This document shows positions 2,343 through 21,317 of a stretch of 21,760 nt of DNA, piece after piece. Positions within the stretch are counted from its first letter, which is position 1. Every line of letters starts with the position of its first letter. The DNA is from a virus. The translations under genes were made by a program, and so were the position numbers. The notes under the pieces were generated by a model, which made no database searches, was not told where the DNA came from, and saw nothing but the letters and a program-made list of their open reading frames with translations. The DNA is taken from positions 1 through 21,760 of the IMG/VR virus record IMGVR_UViG_3300028008_000123. The stretch is one strand, 5' to 3'.

Positions 2343-3719
2343 ATGATACAGTATGAGAGCATAAAAAAGGCCCTGGGCGTCGATATCGCGGTGTCACCAG
2401 AGATGGCAGACGCCATATACCGTTGGCAGCGTATGTATAGCAATAAGCCACCCTGGCTCAGTAAGGATGTTAAGGGATTAAACCTGCCTGCTGCTGTCAG
2501 CTCTGAGTTTGCCCGGCTTGTTACAAACGAGGCAAAGATAGAGATCAGCGGCAGTCCCAGGGCGGAATTTATAGACGGAATACTGACAGGATTCCGAAGC
2601 AATCTCCGCAAATATGTAGAGTATGCCGGTGCTGCAGGCGGTATTTGTTTCAAACCATATCCCTCTGGCGATACAGTTGCAGTGGATGTGGTGAGGGCCG
2701 GTAACTGTTATCCAACGGAGTTTGATTCTTCTGGAGCGATGACCGGGGCTATCTTCCCGGAATTTAGACGTAAGGGGAAGAAACTATACACAAGGCTGGA
2801 ATACCATAGCCTGCGGGATGGCAGATACACCATTGAGAATCGGGCATTTGTGAGTACAAAGGCTATCGTAAAGACCGATGAGATCGTTCAGCTTGGCACG
2901 GAAATAAAACTGGAGACTGTTGACGAGTGGGCCGACATTTCGCCATACGAGGAATTTCAGAATGCGGACTGTACGCTCTTCTCATACCTCAAAATGCCAC
3001 TTGCAAACAACATAGACCCGGATTCTCCTCTGGGAGTGGCGGTCTATTCCAGGGCTGAGAAACAGATACAGGATGCGGACGAGATATACGGGGCCACGCT
3101 CTGGGAATACAAATCAAAGGAGACGGCCATCCAGGCGTCGAATGAATTTTTTAAGAAAAACCGACAGGGTGAAGTACTCCTTCCAAAAGGACAGGAGCGC
3201 TTGTATTATCCGATGGGTAACAGCATTGCTGACCCCACAACCGGAAAGCCCCTGTTCAACGTGTATTCACCAGATATCCGTGACCAGAGCTTTTTTAACG
3301 GGTACAACCGTATCATACAAAAAGTGGAGTTTAACAGCGGCCTAGCATATGGCACACTGTCTGACCCGCAAAACGTGGAGAAGACAGCGGAGGAGATCAA
3401 GACCAGTAAACAAAGGTCCTATTCCACGGTAAAGGACATCCAGAATAGTACAGAGGAGGCTATCCGATCCCTTGTCAGGTCAATAGAGGTGTGGGTGGAA
3501 TTTGGTCACCTTGCCCCGCCTGGAAAAGTAGAGGTGTCATGTGACTGGGATGATTCCCTTATTGTGGATAAAAAGTACGAGCTGGAGCAGCTCAGAGCCG
3601 ACCTGGCTGCCGGGATCATCGGCCCGGTGGAGTTTCGTATGAAGCGTTTCGGTGAGACGGAGGACCAGGCAGTCAAGGCACTTGCGAAGATACAGTTCCC
3701 GGATGACATACAGGAGTGA
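2343..3719 (+). CDS. Phage portal protein (SPP1 Gp6-like)
   Basis: Forms the dodecameric portal at one capsid vertex, through which DNA enters and to which the connector and tail attach. It has 458 residues, normal for the Phage_prot_Gp6 family (PF05133). Typical features include an N-terminal WQRMYSNKPPWL stretch, an AGAAGGICFKPY-like core segment, the SPLGVAVYSRAEKQIQDADEIY region and a helical C-terminus (EDQAVKALAKIQ). ATG 2343 follows GAGGTGAT with good spacing; the GTG at 2334 is part of that ribosome binding site. It lies directly after the large terminase and just before minor capsid protein 2, the standard order. Confidence 0.93.
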   Translation: MIQYESIKKALGVDIAVSPEMADAIYRWQRMYSNKPPWLSKDVKGLNLPAAVSSEFARLVTNEAKIEISGSPRAEFIDGILTGFRSNLRKYVEYAGAAGGICFKPYPSGDTVAVDVVRAGNCYPTEFDSSGAMTGAIFPEFRRKGKKLYTRLEYHSLRDGRYTIENRAFVSTKAIVKTDEIVQLGTEIKLETVDEWADISPYEEFQNADCTLFSYLKMPLANNIDPDSPLGVAVYSRAEKQIQDADEIYGATLWEYKSKETAIQASNEFFKKNRQGEVLLPKGQERLYYPMGNSIADPTTGKPLFNVYSPDIRDQSFFNGYNRIIQKVEFNSGLAYGTLSDPQNVEKTAEEIKTSKQRSYSTVKDIQNSTEEAIRSLVRSIEVWVEFGHLAPPGKVEVSCDWDDSLIVDKKYELEQLRADLAAGIIGPVEFRMKRFGETEDQAVKALAKIQFPDDIQE

Positions 3720-6388: not shown

Positions 6389-7255
6389 ATGGAATATGGT
6401 GGATATAACGTAACGGAAAAATACAGCAATATTGTAGAGCCGAATTTATACTATGACTCTATTTTTCAGCCGGGCATGACCTATACGGATAAATTCCAGG
6501 GTGATGCGGCATCTGGTCTGGTTAAGATCTTTAAGGTTGGAGCTGATGGTGTACAGGACCCGAAGACCCCGGCGGCTGATTTTAGCCATGAAAAGGTAAC
6601 TAATGAGCTGATTGACCTGAGGCTGAACAATATGCAGCAGAAATCTAAGAAAATCTATAACATTCAGGCGCAGGGTGTACCGTACAACATGGCGGAAGAG
6701 CATTTGTCCCAGGCCGTTATGGATTGTAAGGAAGGATGGCAGGCGTCCGGTCTTGCTTGCCTTGCAAATGAGGGCACAGCAATGAGTGACACAGAAGCAC
6801 TCACCGCGGCAAACATCAAAAAGAAAATCATCGAGGCCCGTAAAGTAGTGCGTAAAGGAAAAGCCGTGGCGAACATCGTGCTTGCATCCGTTGATGCGTA
6901 CTCCACTATGCTGGAAGCTGCCGGCGAGCAGTATACACCGGTCACAAATGACAGCATCATGCAGTCCGGACAGATCGGCAGATGGCTGGGCATGTTGTGG
7001 GTTGAAGCAAACATGCTGGATGTGCTGAGCGCTGCTAAGTATTACAACTATGCAGGTGACCTTAAGACAGTAGATCTGACCGGTATTGACTTTATCATGT
7101 ACGACTGGAACGGATTCTCCATCGTGGACAACCTGGAGATGATCCGTCTGAAAGATTCCGAGAATTTCAACGGCACACTTGCTCAGGTTGAGATCAATAC
7201 CGGTTATCGCGTTCCGACAGCCGCAAAGGTAGTCGTAAAAAAACACGGAGCTTGA
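6389..7255 (+). CDS. Major capsid protein (short form)
   Basis: Directly downstream of the scaffold, with AAAGGAG before ATG 6389. The 288-residue protein begins MEYGGYNVTEKYSNIVEPNL and continues with DSIFQPGMTYTDKF, a pattern I associate with SPP1-like/HK97-fold capsid proteins of clostridial phages. Position and size are the main evidence. No L27-like cleavage motif is present at its N-terminus. The last codons (GTA AAA AAA CAC GGA GCT TGA) hold a run of seven A residues that makes an A_AAA_AAA slippery heptamer, and the next reading frame continues in -1. Some ribosomes may therefore make a 380-residue form fused to the beta-rich domain that follows. Confidence 0.9.
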   Translation: MEYGGYNVTEKYSNIVEPNLYYDSIFQPGMTYTDKFQGDAASGLVKIFKVGADGVQDPKTPAADFSHEKVTNELIDLRLNNMQQKSKKIYNIQAQGVPYNMAEEHLSQAVMDCKEGWQASGLACLANEGTAMSDTEALTAANIKKKIIEARKVVRKGKAVANIVLASVDAYSTMLEAAGEQYTPVTNDSIMQSGQIGRWLGMLWVEANMLDVLSAAKYYNYAGDLKTVDLTGIDFIMYDWNGFSIVDNLEMIRLKDSENFNGTLAQVEINTGYRVPTAAKVVVKKHGA

Positions 7256-7320
7256 CAAGTTTGACGGTTACCTCCGTAGCAGGTAGCACGAGCGGCTCTA
7301 CTAAGATCACAGTAGAGCCG
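7237..7320 (+). promoter_or_regulatory. Candidate -1 programmed frameshift signal at the end of the capsid gene
   Basis: The slippery heptamer A_AAA_AAA occupies 7237-7243 in the correct phase (codons GTA AAA AAA). One base later ACGGAG (7245-7250) pairs perfectly with CTCCGT (7272-7277). A separate 10-bp perfect stem, CGGCTCTACT (7293-7302) with AGTAGAGCCG (7311-7320), follows. The zero-frame TGA is at 7253-7255. The -1 frame runs through TRS into the next open frame and ends at 7530. Alternatively the second frame is started independently from TTG. Confidence 0.6.
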
Positions 7321-7530
7321 GCGCTGTCAAGCGGTAACAGCTACAAATACAAAGTGGCGGCAAACCCGACCATGCCGAATGCAGGACAGGAATGCAAGAG
7401 CGGATACACAGCATGGGACGGTACAGCAGATATTACAGCGGCAACAGGTCAGAAAATTGTTGTTGTCGAGGTAGACGCAGATAACCGCTGTGTTGGGGCA
7501 GGTATGACAGTAGTAACTGCCGCAGAATAG
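7261..7530 (+). CDS. Small beta-rich capsid-associated domain (probable -1 frameshift extension of the capsid protein)
   Basis: An 89-residue reading frame (92 if TTG 7252 is used) begins at the capsid stop and lies in the -1 frame relative to it. It reads TVTSVAGSTSGSTKITVEPA, then GNSYKYKVA, SGYTAWDGTADITAATGQKI and VVVEVDADNRCVGAGMT, an alternating hydrophobic and polar pattern typical of a small beta-sandwich like those that decorate capsids. The only starts near the front are TTG codons (7252, 7261). The nearest ribosome binding site, CGGAG (7246-7250), lies in a potential stem. I therefore favour production by frameshifting as a 380-residue capsid fusion, with coupled reinitiation as the alternative. 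It may be displayed on the capsid surface. Confidence 0.65.
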   Translation: MTVTSVAGSTSGSTKITVEPALSSGNSYKYKVAANPTMPNAGQECKSGYTAWDGTADITAATGQKIVVVEVDADNRCVGAGMTVVTAAE

Positions 7531-9107: not shown

Positions 9108-9662
9108 ATGAGAAGATTGGATTTACAGAGGTTTGCGGACACTGAAGCAGTGCAGCGGTATCAGGAGGCATTGTATATCAATGTCGGCGCTGCAGGCGCG
9201 GCCGCAACATACGAACTGTTCGGAACCGGTGTGACCAAAGCTGATGAGAGCTTTGACACGAAAACTAAAGAGAGCCGCTACATCAACCAGAAATCTACAT
9301 CTCAGAGTATTACGGGATATGGGTATTCCATTGGCTATGAATATGAGAATATCCCGTCCGAAAAGGCCGTCAAGATGATTGATTCTGTGGCAAAAAAGGA
9401 GAAAGTAGGCTCTGAAGCGGAGACAGACCTTGTGGTCGTATCCCTGTACATGGAAAAAGAAGAAAGCAAGGGGTATCCGGCAAGAAAAAGGAGAGTGACC
9501 ATCTCCCCGGATTCCAATTCCGATAACGACGGAACTATGGTAGGTTCCGGCAGCCTCCTGGGCAAAACAGACTGGGAGTATGGCTTCTTTGATGTGGAGA
9601 AAAAGGCGTTTACTGCAGACGCCACAGCTGCGGCAAAATTTGATGTGTCGGCGGGAAATTAG
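9108..9662 (+). CDS. Major tail (tube) protein, short form, with L27-like Prp cleavage motif
   Basis: A 184-residue protein in the tail tube slot between the tail terminator and tail chaperones. Typical phrases are KSTSQSITGYGYSIGYEYENIPSEK, TDLVVVSLYMEKEE and DSNSDNDGTMVGSGSLLGKTDWEYGFFD. It starts MRRLDLQRFADTE, matching S. aureus L27 (MLKLNLQFFA...) in register at M1, L4, L6, Q7, F9 and A10. The phage Prp-like protease could therefore cut after F9. ATG 9108 is set by AAAGGTAGGA upstream; extending left to 9066 would run into the previous gene. The final codons GGA AAT TAG hold a canonical -1 slippery site, so a 217-residue long form is expected too. Confidence 0.92.
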   Translation: MRRLDLQRFADTEAVQRYQEALYINVGAAGAAATYELFGTGVTKADESFDTKTKESRYINQKSTSQSITGYGYSIGYEYENIPSEKAVKMIDSVAKKEKVGSEAETDLVVVSLYMEKEESKGYPARKRRVTISPDSNSDNDGTMVGSGSLLGKTDWEYGFFDVEKKAFTADATAAAKFDVSAGN

Positions 9663-9700
9663 TTGGTGCTCCGGTAACAACGGCAGCCGAAGCACCGACT
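9653..9700 (+). promoter_or_regulatory. Candidate -1 programmed frameshift signal at the end of the major tail gene
   Basis: G_GGA_AAT (9653-9659) is a canonical X_XXY_YYZ heptamer in the right phase, directly followed by the zero-frame stop TAG (9660-9662). AGTTGGTGCT (9661-9670) pairs with AGCACCGACT (9691-9700) over 10 positions with a single G-U. The strong inner six pairs start 5 bases after the heptamer. After slippage the -1 frame stays open to TAG at 9758-9760. Confidence 0.82.
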
Positions 9701-9760
9701 AAAGTGGCCGTAAATAAAGTAGCTATAGAGACCGCAAAAAGTGAGGCTGGGACTGAATAG
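9659..9760 (+). CDS. -1 frameshift extension of the major tail protein (33 codons)
   Basis: In the -1 frame the tail gene continues for 33 codons, LVGAPVTTAAEAPTKVAVNK and then VAIETAKSEAGTE, to TAG. The extension has no start codon or ribosome binding site of its own, and it fills the otherwise empty 125 bases between the tail protein stop and the next gene. It is rich in Ala, Thr, Val, Lys and Glu and looks flexible. Fused to the tube protein it gives a 217-residue minor form. Two-form tail tube proteins made by frameshifting are known in SPP1 and Listeria phage PSA, both +1; here the geometry is -1. Confidence 0.78.
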   Translation, partial: LVGAPVTTAAEAPTKVAVNKVAIETAKSEAGTE

Positions 9761-9787: not shown

Positions 9788-10138
9788 ATGCAGGTAAATT
9801 TTGACACGCTTAACTTTGATGCAACAGATGCGGACACCCTGCAAAAGTATCTTGATGCAATGCAGATCGTTTCAGAAAAGGCGAATAGGCTTGATAAAGA
9901 CGCTCCGCAGCCAAAACAGTATCAGTATCTTTGCGAGACTGTTAAAACATGTTTCGATGATATATTCGGGGCTGGCACTGGAGAAAAAATCTGTGGGGCC
10001 AACAACTCTCTAAGAGCCTGCACAAATGCGCTTAGAGAACTGGTAGAAGAATATAATCACCAGATGAGCGAACAGAAGAGAGCGAATGAAGCGCTCATTG
10101 CGGAAATGGAAACTGGGAAGGCTGTTGATACAGAGTGA
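9788..10138 (+). CDS. Tail assembly chaperone (gpG position, DUF6673-like)
   Basis: A 116-residue protein between the major tail protein and the Gp15-like gene, the place of the first tail assembly chaperone. Chaperones of this class coat the tape measure protein during tail assembly. Sequence features are an acidic start (FDTLNFDATDADTLQKYLDAM), a basic-aromatic centre (CETVKTCFDDIFGAGTGEKICG) and a helical end (EEYNHQMSEQKRANEALIAEM). The DDIFGAGTGEKI-like motif resembles DUF6673. GGAGGTAGAGGAA provides the ribosome binding site. The stop overlaps the next start as GTGA. No slippery site is present for a G/GT-type fusion. Confidence 0.72.
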   Translation: MQVNFDTLNFDATDADTLQKYLDAMQIVSEKANRLDKDAPQPKQYQYLCETVKTCFDDIFGAGTGEKICGANNSLRACTNALRELVEEYNHQMSEQKRANEALIAEMETGKAVDTE

Positions 10139-10734
10139 GATTAACAGAACAGCTTCCAGTAACTGTAGAAATTGCGGGAGAAGCATATGCAATCAAAACG
10201 GATTTTAGAGATATCCTCCGTTATGATGAGACTATTAGGGGACAGAGTGATGGAGAAGCGGTATTAAAGGCCATAAACATGCTTTTGGGAGAAGAGGTGC
10301 TACGCAAACCAAATATGAGAGCTGACGATATAGCAGAGGCGATCGGATGGTTTGTCAAATGCGGGGATATCAACAAAAAGAATACTCTCCCGCGTGCTGT
10401 ACTGGGCCTTAACAATGCGGTACCTATGGATTTTGGCACGGATTCCGCTTTGATTTATACCGCCTTCCTACAGACATACGGGCTTGATCTGTATGATATC
10501 CCATATCTGCACTGGTGGAAATTTAATTGGATGCTGGAGGACATTTCTCCTTCGTGCCGTCTGTCAAAGGTAATTGAGTACCGGACGATAGATACGAAAA
10601 ACAAAAATCTGTCCAAGGAACAGAAGAAAGCTTATGCGGCCTTACAGCGGTATTTCCGTGTCCAGGAAAAGAAATCTGAAGAAGATGATGCCATAGTACA
10701 GGCACTCCTGGAAGGGAGGGACCCATTTGGATAA
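10135..10734 (+). CDS. Bacteriophage Gp15-like tail assembly protein
   Basis: A 199-residue protein of the Phage_Gp15 family (PF06854). It starts MRLTEQLPVTVEIAGEAYAI followed by KTDFRDILRYDETI, with HWWKFNWMLEDISPSCRLSKVIEYRTID-like text in the middle and a charged C-terminus with KNLSKEQKKAYAALQRYF. The WWKFNWML segment followed by a YR motif is the clearest family mark. It acts with the preceding gene in tail assembly around the tape measure. The GTG start overlaps the previous stop (GTGA), so translation is probably coupled. Its own stop overlaps the start of a tiny zinc-ribbon gene. Confidence 0.85.
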   Translation: MRLTEQLPVTVEIAGEAYAIKTDFRDILRYDETIRGQSDGEAVLKAINMLLGEEVLRKPNMRADDIAEAIGWFVKCGDINKKNTLPRAVLGLNNAVPMDFGTDSALIYTAFLQTYGLDLYDIPYLHWWKFNWMLEDISPSCRLSKVIEYRTIDTKNKNLSKEQKKAYAALQRYFRVQEKKSEEDDAIVQALLEGRDPFG

Positions 10735-20419: not shown

Positions 20420-20620
20420 ATGAGGATATTTGGCAAGGAGTTCACCTACAATGGATACAAGGTCTACCATACTGGTGATAAGCCGACCGCTGCAGACGTT
20501 GGAACATACACAAAGGCCCAGGTAGACCAAAAAATCACAGATGGCAATGGAACAAAGATAACCGCAGCAACCGCCGCACCGAGCAGCCCGGTAAAGGGTG
20601 AAGTGTGGATCAAAGTCTGA
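20420..20620 (+). CDS. Small fibre-associated protein
   Basis: A 66-residue protein 9 bases after the fibre stop, with GGAGGCAGCT before ATG 20420. It begins with a short aromatic stretch (MRIFGKEFTYNGYKVYHTGD), then TAADVGTYTKAQVDQKI, a phrase common in fibre repeats, and ends ATAAPSSPVKGEVWIKV. The ending matches the N-terminal module of the main fibre (ATAPDSPVEGQIY) but stops short, so it may be a detached or truncated fibre module or a trimerisation/attachment protein for the tail-tip protein downstream. Function is unknown. Confidence 0.65.
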   Translation: MRIFGKEFTYNGYKVYHTGDKPTAADVGTYTKAQVDQKITDGNGTKITAATAAPSSPVKGEVWIKV

Positions 20621-20634
20621 AAGGAGAATATATT

Positions 20635-21039
20635 ATGGCTACAACAAAAAAATCACAGTTTAAGATTAACAACGGGACGGATTGGGACACTTATCATTTT
20701 GAGACTGATAGTGCCCAGGTGAAGCACAAAAAGAGTGATGGTACAGAAACCACAGTGGAAGATGTACTAAACTCCACTTTAGGAGGGTATATGATACAGG
20801 CTGGAAGAATTAATATAACTCCTAAGGCAAATACTCCAACGACAAAACGCCTAACCTTTCCAAAACCATTCAAGGAGCAGGCGATAGTCTTGTTGACCCC
20901 TATTTCAGGAGTACCAGGTCAAAAGGTGCTTGGCGTAGGTACATTAAATAATACCAGTGATGGATGTGATGTTATTGTAACGAGAACGGAAACTACAGAG
21001 ACTACAATTGCTTGGATAGCAATAGGACCAGCGGTATAG
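20635..21039 (+). CDS. Tail-tip/receptor-binding protein with invertible C-terminus (expressed orientation)
   Basis: A 134-residue protein; AAAGGAGAA lies just before ATG 20635. Residues 1-45 (MATTKKSQFKINNGTDWDTY and the following short stretch) are a fixed N-terminal part like those that attach small tip proteins. Residues 46-51, NSTLGG, are encoded by the left copy of an 18-bp inverted repeat. Residues 52-134 form the variable domain: TKRLTFPKPFKEQAIVLLTP, a V-G-T turn, and an ending TIAWIAIGPAV, a pattern I associate with gp53-like/H-type lectin tip domains that bind receptors. The domain is about 63 percent identical by hand count to a silent copy on the opposite strand. Inversion would replace residues 52-134 by 82 others without a frame change. 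Confidence 0.85.
   Translation: MATTKKSQFKINNGTDWDTYHFETDSAQVKHKKSDGTETTVEDVLNSTLGGYMIQAGRINITPKANTPTTKRLTFPKPFKEQAIVLLTPISGVPGQKVLGVGTLNNTSDGCDVIVTRTETTETTIAWIAIGPAV
20769..20786 (+). repeat. Left inverted repeat (crossover site) of invertible segment
   Basis: AAACTCCACTTTAGGAGG is repeated exactly, inverted, at 21295-21312. The site has short dyad arms CTCC and GGAG around a 6-base centre ACTTTA, as expected for a site-specific recombinase site. It encodes NSTLGG in the tail-tip gene. Confidence 0.8.
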
Positions 21040-21044
21040 CCTTT

Positions 21045-21317
21045 TTACATTGGACCGATAGCAACCCACGTAAGTATGGTTTCCGTGCTATTTGTTCTTT
21101 TGACATAGGCGTCGAACCCTTCTTTTGTATTGTTGTCAGTACCCACGCCCTGTACCGTAGTACCTGGAACGGATGTTATCGGGGTAAGTATTACGTCAGC
21201 TTTATCTTTAAAAGGCTTAGGAAATGTTACACGCTTCATGGTAGGTTCGTTGGGTTTGGGTGTTATAGTCACTCTGCCCGTCTGAATCGCCTTTCCTCCT
21301 AAAGTGGAGTTTTGCAC
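21045..21317 (-). CDS. Silent alternative C-terminal cassette of the tail-tip protein
   Basis: On the reverse strand a frame reads NSTLGG followed by KAIQTGRVTITPKPNEPTMK, then RVTFPKPFKDKADVILTP, and ends ILTWVAIGPM. It parallels the expressed C-terminus over about 89 positions with roughly 56 identities (hand count). It has only a chance GTG (21315-21317) and no ribosome binding site in front, and no N-terminal attachment part, so it should be silent in this orientation. The third-position differences and substitutions at likely loop positions (for example LNNTSDGC versus DNNTKEGF) suggest selection for a different binding surface rather than decay. Confidence 0.8.
   Translation of the reverse strand: MQNSTLGGKAIQTGRVTITPKPNEPTMKRVTFPKPFKDKADVILTPITSVPGTTVQGVGTDNNTKEGFDAYVKRTNSTETILTWVAIGPM
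21295..21312 (-). repeat. Right inverted repeat (crossover site) of invertible segment
   Basis: CCTCCTAAAGTGGAGTTT is the exact reverse complement of 20769-20786. Just outside both copies a weaker match continues (TGT-C- in the same register), so about 22 of 24 bases agree. This outer match may be part of the recombinase site. Confidence 0.8.

Follow-up and report, generated by a model that had tools for sequence, protein, structure and literature searches.

The sequence studied here is a 21.8-kb IMG/VR virus record, and in the following "the window" refers to this whole stretch of 21,760 nucleotides. Its near kin are Blautia prophages, with a DNA match of 97% in one Blautia genome and of 84% in B. 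parvula (NZ_CP084061). The features under discussion are collected in Table 1. The product of the gene at their centre matches phrog_3099, a family without annotated function (E 3e-41). An AlphaFold model of this product, made with 36 homologues as input, reached a pLDDT of 89 and was aligned by VIA-align with the tail tube of 80alpha (Z 12.7), with SPP1 gp17.1 (Z 11.9, rmsd 2.9 over 143 residues) and with lambda gpV (Z 9.8), and the monocin tube was also among the fold matches. The gene follows a tail completion/connector gene and precedes DUF6673, Gp15 and the tape measure gene. Based on the tube-type fold of the model and this gene order, the product is the major tail protein, in agreement with the first-pass annotation of the sequence. 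Elsewhere in the window (20605-21317), the C-termini of two paralogous tail fibres, 64% identical over 87 aa, are placed in convergent (tail-to-tail) orientation, an arrangement known from invertible tail-fibre cassettes. Inverted repeats of at least 14 bp were not found between 20300 and 21760.

Table 1. Features at the ends of the tail-tube and major capsid genes of the window.
Feature	Coordinates	Strand	Basis
Major tail (tail-tube) protein, 184 aa, phrog_3099	9108-9662	+	PHROG match, predicted fold, gene order
Slippery heptamer G_GGA_AAT	9653-9659	+	sequence; invariant in 4/4 lineages
Zero-frame stop TAG directly 3' of the heptamer (TAA in relatives)	9660-9662	+	sequence
Hairpin, arms 9660-9670/9691-9701, core 9665-9670/9691-9696, inner stem 9672-9675/9686-9689	9660-9701	+	predicted fold, conservation
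Putative -1 frame C-terminal extension, 33 codons, stop TAG 9758-9760	9659-9760	+	open in window, L004, L006
Terminator-like hairpin 9745-9754/9759-9768 with TTTT; loop spanned by the -1 stop codon	9745-9772	+	RNAfold
Candidate -1 site A_AAA_AAA, the second of the window, towards the 3' end of the major capsid gene (6389-7255)	7237-7243	+	heptamer scan
Ig-like domain (Pfam S-l_SbsC_C) in the -1 frame, putative extension of the major capsid protein	7243-7530	+	Pfam E 1e-18

The tail-tube gene ends in GCG GGA AAT TAG (9651-9662), with the heptamer in phase and the stop as the very next codon. Stop readthrough was ruled out because the next zero-frame stop comes after four codons, and a +1 shift because the +1 frame is open for 13 codons only; a -1 shift is therefore the only productive one. 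The -1 frame holds 33 sense codons from 9659 (LVGAPVTTAAEAPTKVAVNKVAIETAKSEAGTE). An independent start inside it was rejected, as it contains no ATG or TTG and a single GTG without a Shine-Dalgarno sequence. The first-pass annotation had described the phase, the adjacent stop, the 33 open codons and the missing start signal in the same way, but let the -1 frame fill the whole gap to the next gene, which it does not quite do: 27 nt remain before the ATG at 9788, and they hold part of the terminator-like hairpin and the next Shine-Dalgarno sequence. Its description of the site as canonical is right for heptamer and phase, but overstates the likely efficiency, since the Asn tRNA in the A site would re-pair from AAU to AAA non-cognately. 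The analogous heptamer G_GGA_AAC has a low efficiency in E. coli, yet it is used by insertion sequences and is among their commonest frameshift sites (PMC4066793). The -1 sites of the IS3/IS1 families share with the window the non-cognate Asn heptamer in the A site, but lead to a transposase fusion and not to a virion protein. On G_GGA_AAY sites, weak shifting is to be expected in E. coli (PMC4066793). No Shine-Dalgarno-like stimulator was seen upstream of the heptamer.

Downstream of the heptamer, a hairpin of 11+4 bp is predicted whose core GGTGCT/AGCACC begins 5 nt past the slip site, in keeping with bacterial -1 signals, where an RNA structure lies about 5-8 nt downstream. The 10-bp stem noticed at first (9661-9670 with 9691-9700) was recovered by folding together with its six strongest pairs at this spacing, and the fold adds the pair 9660-9701 and the 4-bp inner stem. 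The fold energy of the 50 nt after the heptamer is -22.7 kcal/mol (z about -4; z -3.4 for 55 nt), which belongs to the lowest 0.1% among all 50-nt segments of the plus strand. A search of the region against Rfam returned nothing. When in-phase X_XXY_YYZ motifs were counted in 25 genes of the window (6,886 codons), 47 canonical heptamers were found (0.7% per codon). The -1 frame runs beyond the stop of its own gene at two of these 47, namely at the tail-tube site and at the capsid site, and the strongest downstream fold among all 47 is that of the tail-tube heptamer.

The signal was then compared across four lineages, the window and three relatives at 72-84% DNA identity (L004, L005 and L006, the last being the prophage of Blautia parvula NBRC 113351); a hunt for further close homologues in about 1,600 genomes plus viral contigs yielded five lineages. 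G_GGA_AAT is identical in all three relatives, where it is followed by TAA, and so is the six-pair core stem, with its first pair likewise 5 nt past the slip site. Heptamer and core stem are hence invariant in the four lineages, as would be looked for in a bacterial -1 signal. Within the hairpin 29/32 positions are invariant, compared with 19/43 in the stretch 3' of it (Fisher P 3e-5). The hairpin z-scores of the relatives are about -1 only. Covariation of the stem was not seen within the clade, a check that is uninformative because the core stem is invariant.

The 99-nt extension shows no indels among the four lineages, whereas the spacer just 3' of its stop has non-triplet indels. In L005, a premature stop shortens the extension by seven codons to 26. 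Between the window and L004, 11/25 changes in the extension fall on third positions, and its amino-acid conservation is barely above the neutral expectation (P 0.02-0.48 by pair). The peptide found no match among phage proteins, and the DNA of the region found none in collections of phages and plasmids. With 33 aa, the extension is shorter than an Ig-like domain (about 80-100 aa). Given the weak amino-acid signal and the early stop in L005, it looks like a loosely constrained arm rich in Ala, Pro and Lys rather than a folded domain. The terminator-like hairpin at its end is kept in the relatives; it falls under the T-run threshold of the terminator tool.

The second heptamer with an overrunning -1 frame belongs to the major capsid gene, which ends in GTA AAA AAA CAC GGA GCT TGA. 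L005 and L006 have exactly this slip site, despite capsid proteins that are only 65% identical. Changes in the -1 frame are distributed over the three codon positions as 9/4/36 and 7/1/28, a pattern by which the frame is clearly coding. In-frame fusions of the S-l_SbsC_C domain occur elsewhere: L008, another phage, has it on its capsid protein, and L009 and L029 have it on tail proteins. A conserved hairpin was not found downstream of the capsid site, and a separate TTG start for the Ig-like reading frame is an alternative. The same phage probably uses a -1 shift on its capsid protein too.

Equivalent layouts were found in other phages. In L007, with a tail protein 66% identical to that of the window, the gene ends in GTG GGG TAG and thus carries a different slip site. 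Its hairpin of 12 pairs is unrelated and stronger (-25 kcal/mol), but has its first pair at the same +6 position as in the window, and its -1 frame of 46 codons likewise has its stop in a terminator loop. The distant tail-tube genes of L017, L037 and Ruminococcus phage RG-TP1 (L011) end in GGG GAR TAR with a hairpin at +5 to +7, and their -1 extensions comprise 36, 136 and 20 aa, respectively. The -1 stop shares bases with the ATG of the following gene in L017 and RG-TP1. In RG-TP1 (about 2987-3065) the tail-tube gene ends in ATG GGG GAG TAG, followed by the hairpin, and the ATGA overlap closes the -1 frame. In L037 (1501 down to 1092, minus strand) the 136-aa -1 domain comes right after CCG GGG GAA TAA, is without a start of its own and has a weak PHROG match only (phrog_31690). 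A capsid gene of the gut phage clone L146 (MT835625.1, about 1485-1899) ends in GCG GGG GGT TAA before an 18-pair hairpin, and its -1 frame encodes a domain of about 130 aa that is akin to the one in the -1 frame of L037.

Among 83 non-redundant tail-tube gene ends, those with a G-rich slip site have a longer -1 frame (median 33 versus 8 codons, P 0.0007; +1-frame control across the same ends, P 0.11), a result that is supportive only, as the motif classes were set after seeing the data. Four further genes with an open -1 frame were left uncounted: L067, L031 and L041 lack both a slip site and a matching hairpin, and L116 has GGGGAA before the stop without the full G_GGG motif or a matching hairpin. 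In L067 (about 1989-2120), an open -1 frame of 43 aa lies behind the tail-tube stop without a slip site or strong hairpin. Both site and extension are absent from most of the distant homologues and from the great majority of phrog_3099 genes, and the feature is therefore optional. We tentatively raise the possibility that gut Clostridia phages share a recurrent and possibly mobile layout, consisting of a G-rich slip site at the stop, a hairpin 5-7 nt later and a -1 arm or domain, which tail-tube and capsid genes would have acquired repeatedly, by new origin or by transfer between them. Such a layout would include the window clade, L007, L017, L037 and RG-TP1 for the tail tube and MT835625 for the capsid, and with them the non-canonical sites G_GGG_GAR_TAR and GTG_GGG_TAG, at which the stop codon itself may act as the pause.

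According to our analysis, a programmed -1 frameshift likely makes a minority long form of the tail-tube protein in this Blautia phage. A -1 frameshift that extends the major tail protein had been the central proposal of the first-pass annotation; it is the best explanation of the locus and is backed by the comparative evidence. Most ribosomes would terminate at the TAG at 9660. Stop codon and hairpin would slow a minority of them, which would slip back one base on the heptamer and read 33 more codons, resulting in a tail protein of about 217 residues with the junction ...SAGN-LVGAPV.... In the P site, tRNA-Gly would move from GGA to GGG, an allowed wobble, and tRNA-Asn would move from AAU to AAA with a third-position mismatch. 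The share of the long form may be guessed at a few percent. The tail tube would take up both forms, with the C-terminal arm pointing outward as a decoration or as a tether between rings. We infer the slippage, its rate, the incorporation into the virion and the role of the arm, the latter from precedents in which C-terminal arms and Ig domains stick out from the tail tube (PMC9022992).

We regard it as unlikely that no functional frameshift takes place, in which case the hairpin would shield the 3' end of the mRNA or be the decayed terminator of a highly expressed tail gene, with a fortuitously open -1 frame behind it. Hairpins or terminators after the stop are indeed common in tail-tube homologues that have no extension, and the weak amino-acid constraint, the truncation in L005 and the partial overlap of the conserved C-terminus with the terminator-like hairpin fit such a reading. 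However, the first hairpin is without a T-run, and the terminator-like hairpin is a different one, located 43 nt further downstream. The invariance of the heptamer itself and the lack of indels in the extension also argue against it, as does the recurrence of unrelated hairpins at the same spacing, together with a -1 frame, in L007, L017, L037 and one capsid gene.

Among known systems, Lactobacillus phage A2 is the one to which the proposed frameshift bears comparison in both genes. Work by Garcia in 2004 and Rodriguez in 2005 reportedly described -1 frameshifts in its gp10 (major tail) and gp5 (major head). Shifts of -1 in both the major head and the major tail protein of A2 are cited in PMC7260188, and in the A2 sequence (AJ251789) C_CCA_AAA stands at the ends of both genes. 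The earlier suggestion that a -1 version would be a variation on the theme of the +1 shifts of SPP1 and PSA thus fails as an argument for novelty, because A2 already shifts -1 in its major tail protein. In A2 as, by prediction, in the window, one phage shifts -1 in its major tail gene and in its major capsid gene, in each case close to the stop, and thereby gains C-terminal extensions; shared as well, at the tail site of the window, is the succession of heptamer and hairpin. In A2, however, C_CCA_AAA lies one codon before the stop in both genes and Ig-like domains are added, whereas the tail site of the window combines G_GGA_AAT flush with the stop, a 33-residue arm and a phrog_3099 tail protein.

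In SPP1 (gp17.1/gp17.1*) and the Listeria phages PSA, A118 and A500 (Tsh), a shift at the tail-tube stop gives rise to a long form, a layout also predicted here with the TAG as next codon and the 33-codon -1 frame. SPP1 in addition has the same tube fold (Z 11.9). These phages differ in the +1 direction, documented for the tail protein of Listeria phages (PMC5009743), in the proline shifty stop (CCC_UGA in Listeria phages) and in the extension. The MTP-TpeX of Lactococcus 936 phages, made by a +1 shift at CCC.UAG (PMC4759559), is likewise an optional tail-protein extension, but one that adds a larger host-binding domain and has been shown in virions, while the form in the window is predicted. 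The lambda gpG/gpGT site G_GGA_AAG differs from the window heptamer in its last base only, but serves tail assembly chaperones and not the tube protein. The two chaperone-position genes of the window (9788-10138 and 10135-10734) overlap by GTGA with no heptamer near the overlap, and the only heptamer in the first of them lies near the gene start, unlike a lambda-type G/GT arrangement. The candidate frameshift differs from those of known frameshifted tail proteins in its slip site, in its position flush with the stop and in its short non-Ig extension.

These precedents also bear on the notion that slippage is real but incidental or regulatory, with the long form unused in the virion. The short, low-complexity and fast-changing extension would suit this notion, but A2, SPP1 and the 936 phages put the long form into the virion, and slip site and stem are retained in the window clade; we therefore consider it very unlikely. 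That a recent frameshift mutation or a sequencing error split one longer gene, as the direct continuation by a -1 frame without its own start might suggest, can practically be dismissed, since GGGAAATTA(A/G) is identical in independently assembled viral contigs and two Blautia genomes (72-100% DNA identity) and the fused frame occurs in no homologue. The case named at the outset as speaking against the frameshift, homologues with the gene intact but without heptamer and -1 frame, did not arise either, as no fused-frame homologue lacking the site was found, although both site and extension are missing from most of the distant homologues.

With the probable programmed -1 frameshift at the tail-tube stop, the few known frameshifted tail-tube proteins gain a well-supported -1 case. 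RG-TP1, being a cultured phage, offers a convenient experimental test case, and apparently weak heptamers such as these are usable for tests outside E. coli. In phages of abundant gut bacteria, extensions of this kind are missed by annotations. Judging from the pattern across the family, -1 shifting close to the stop may be a common means of dosing tail and head decorations.
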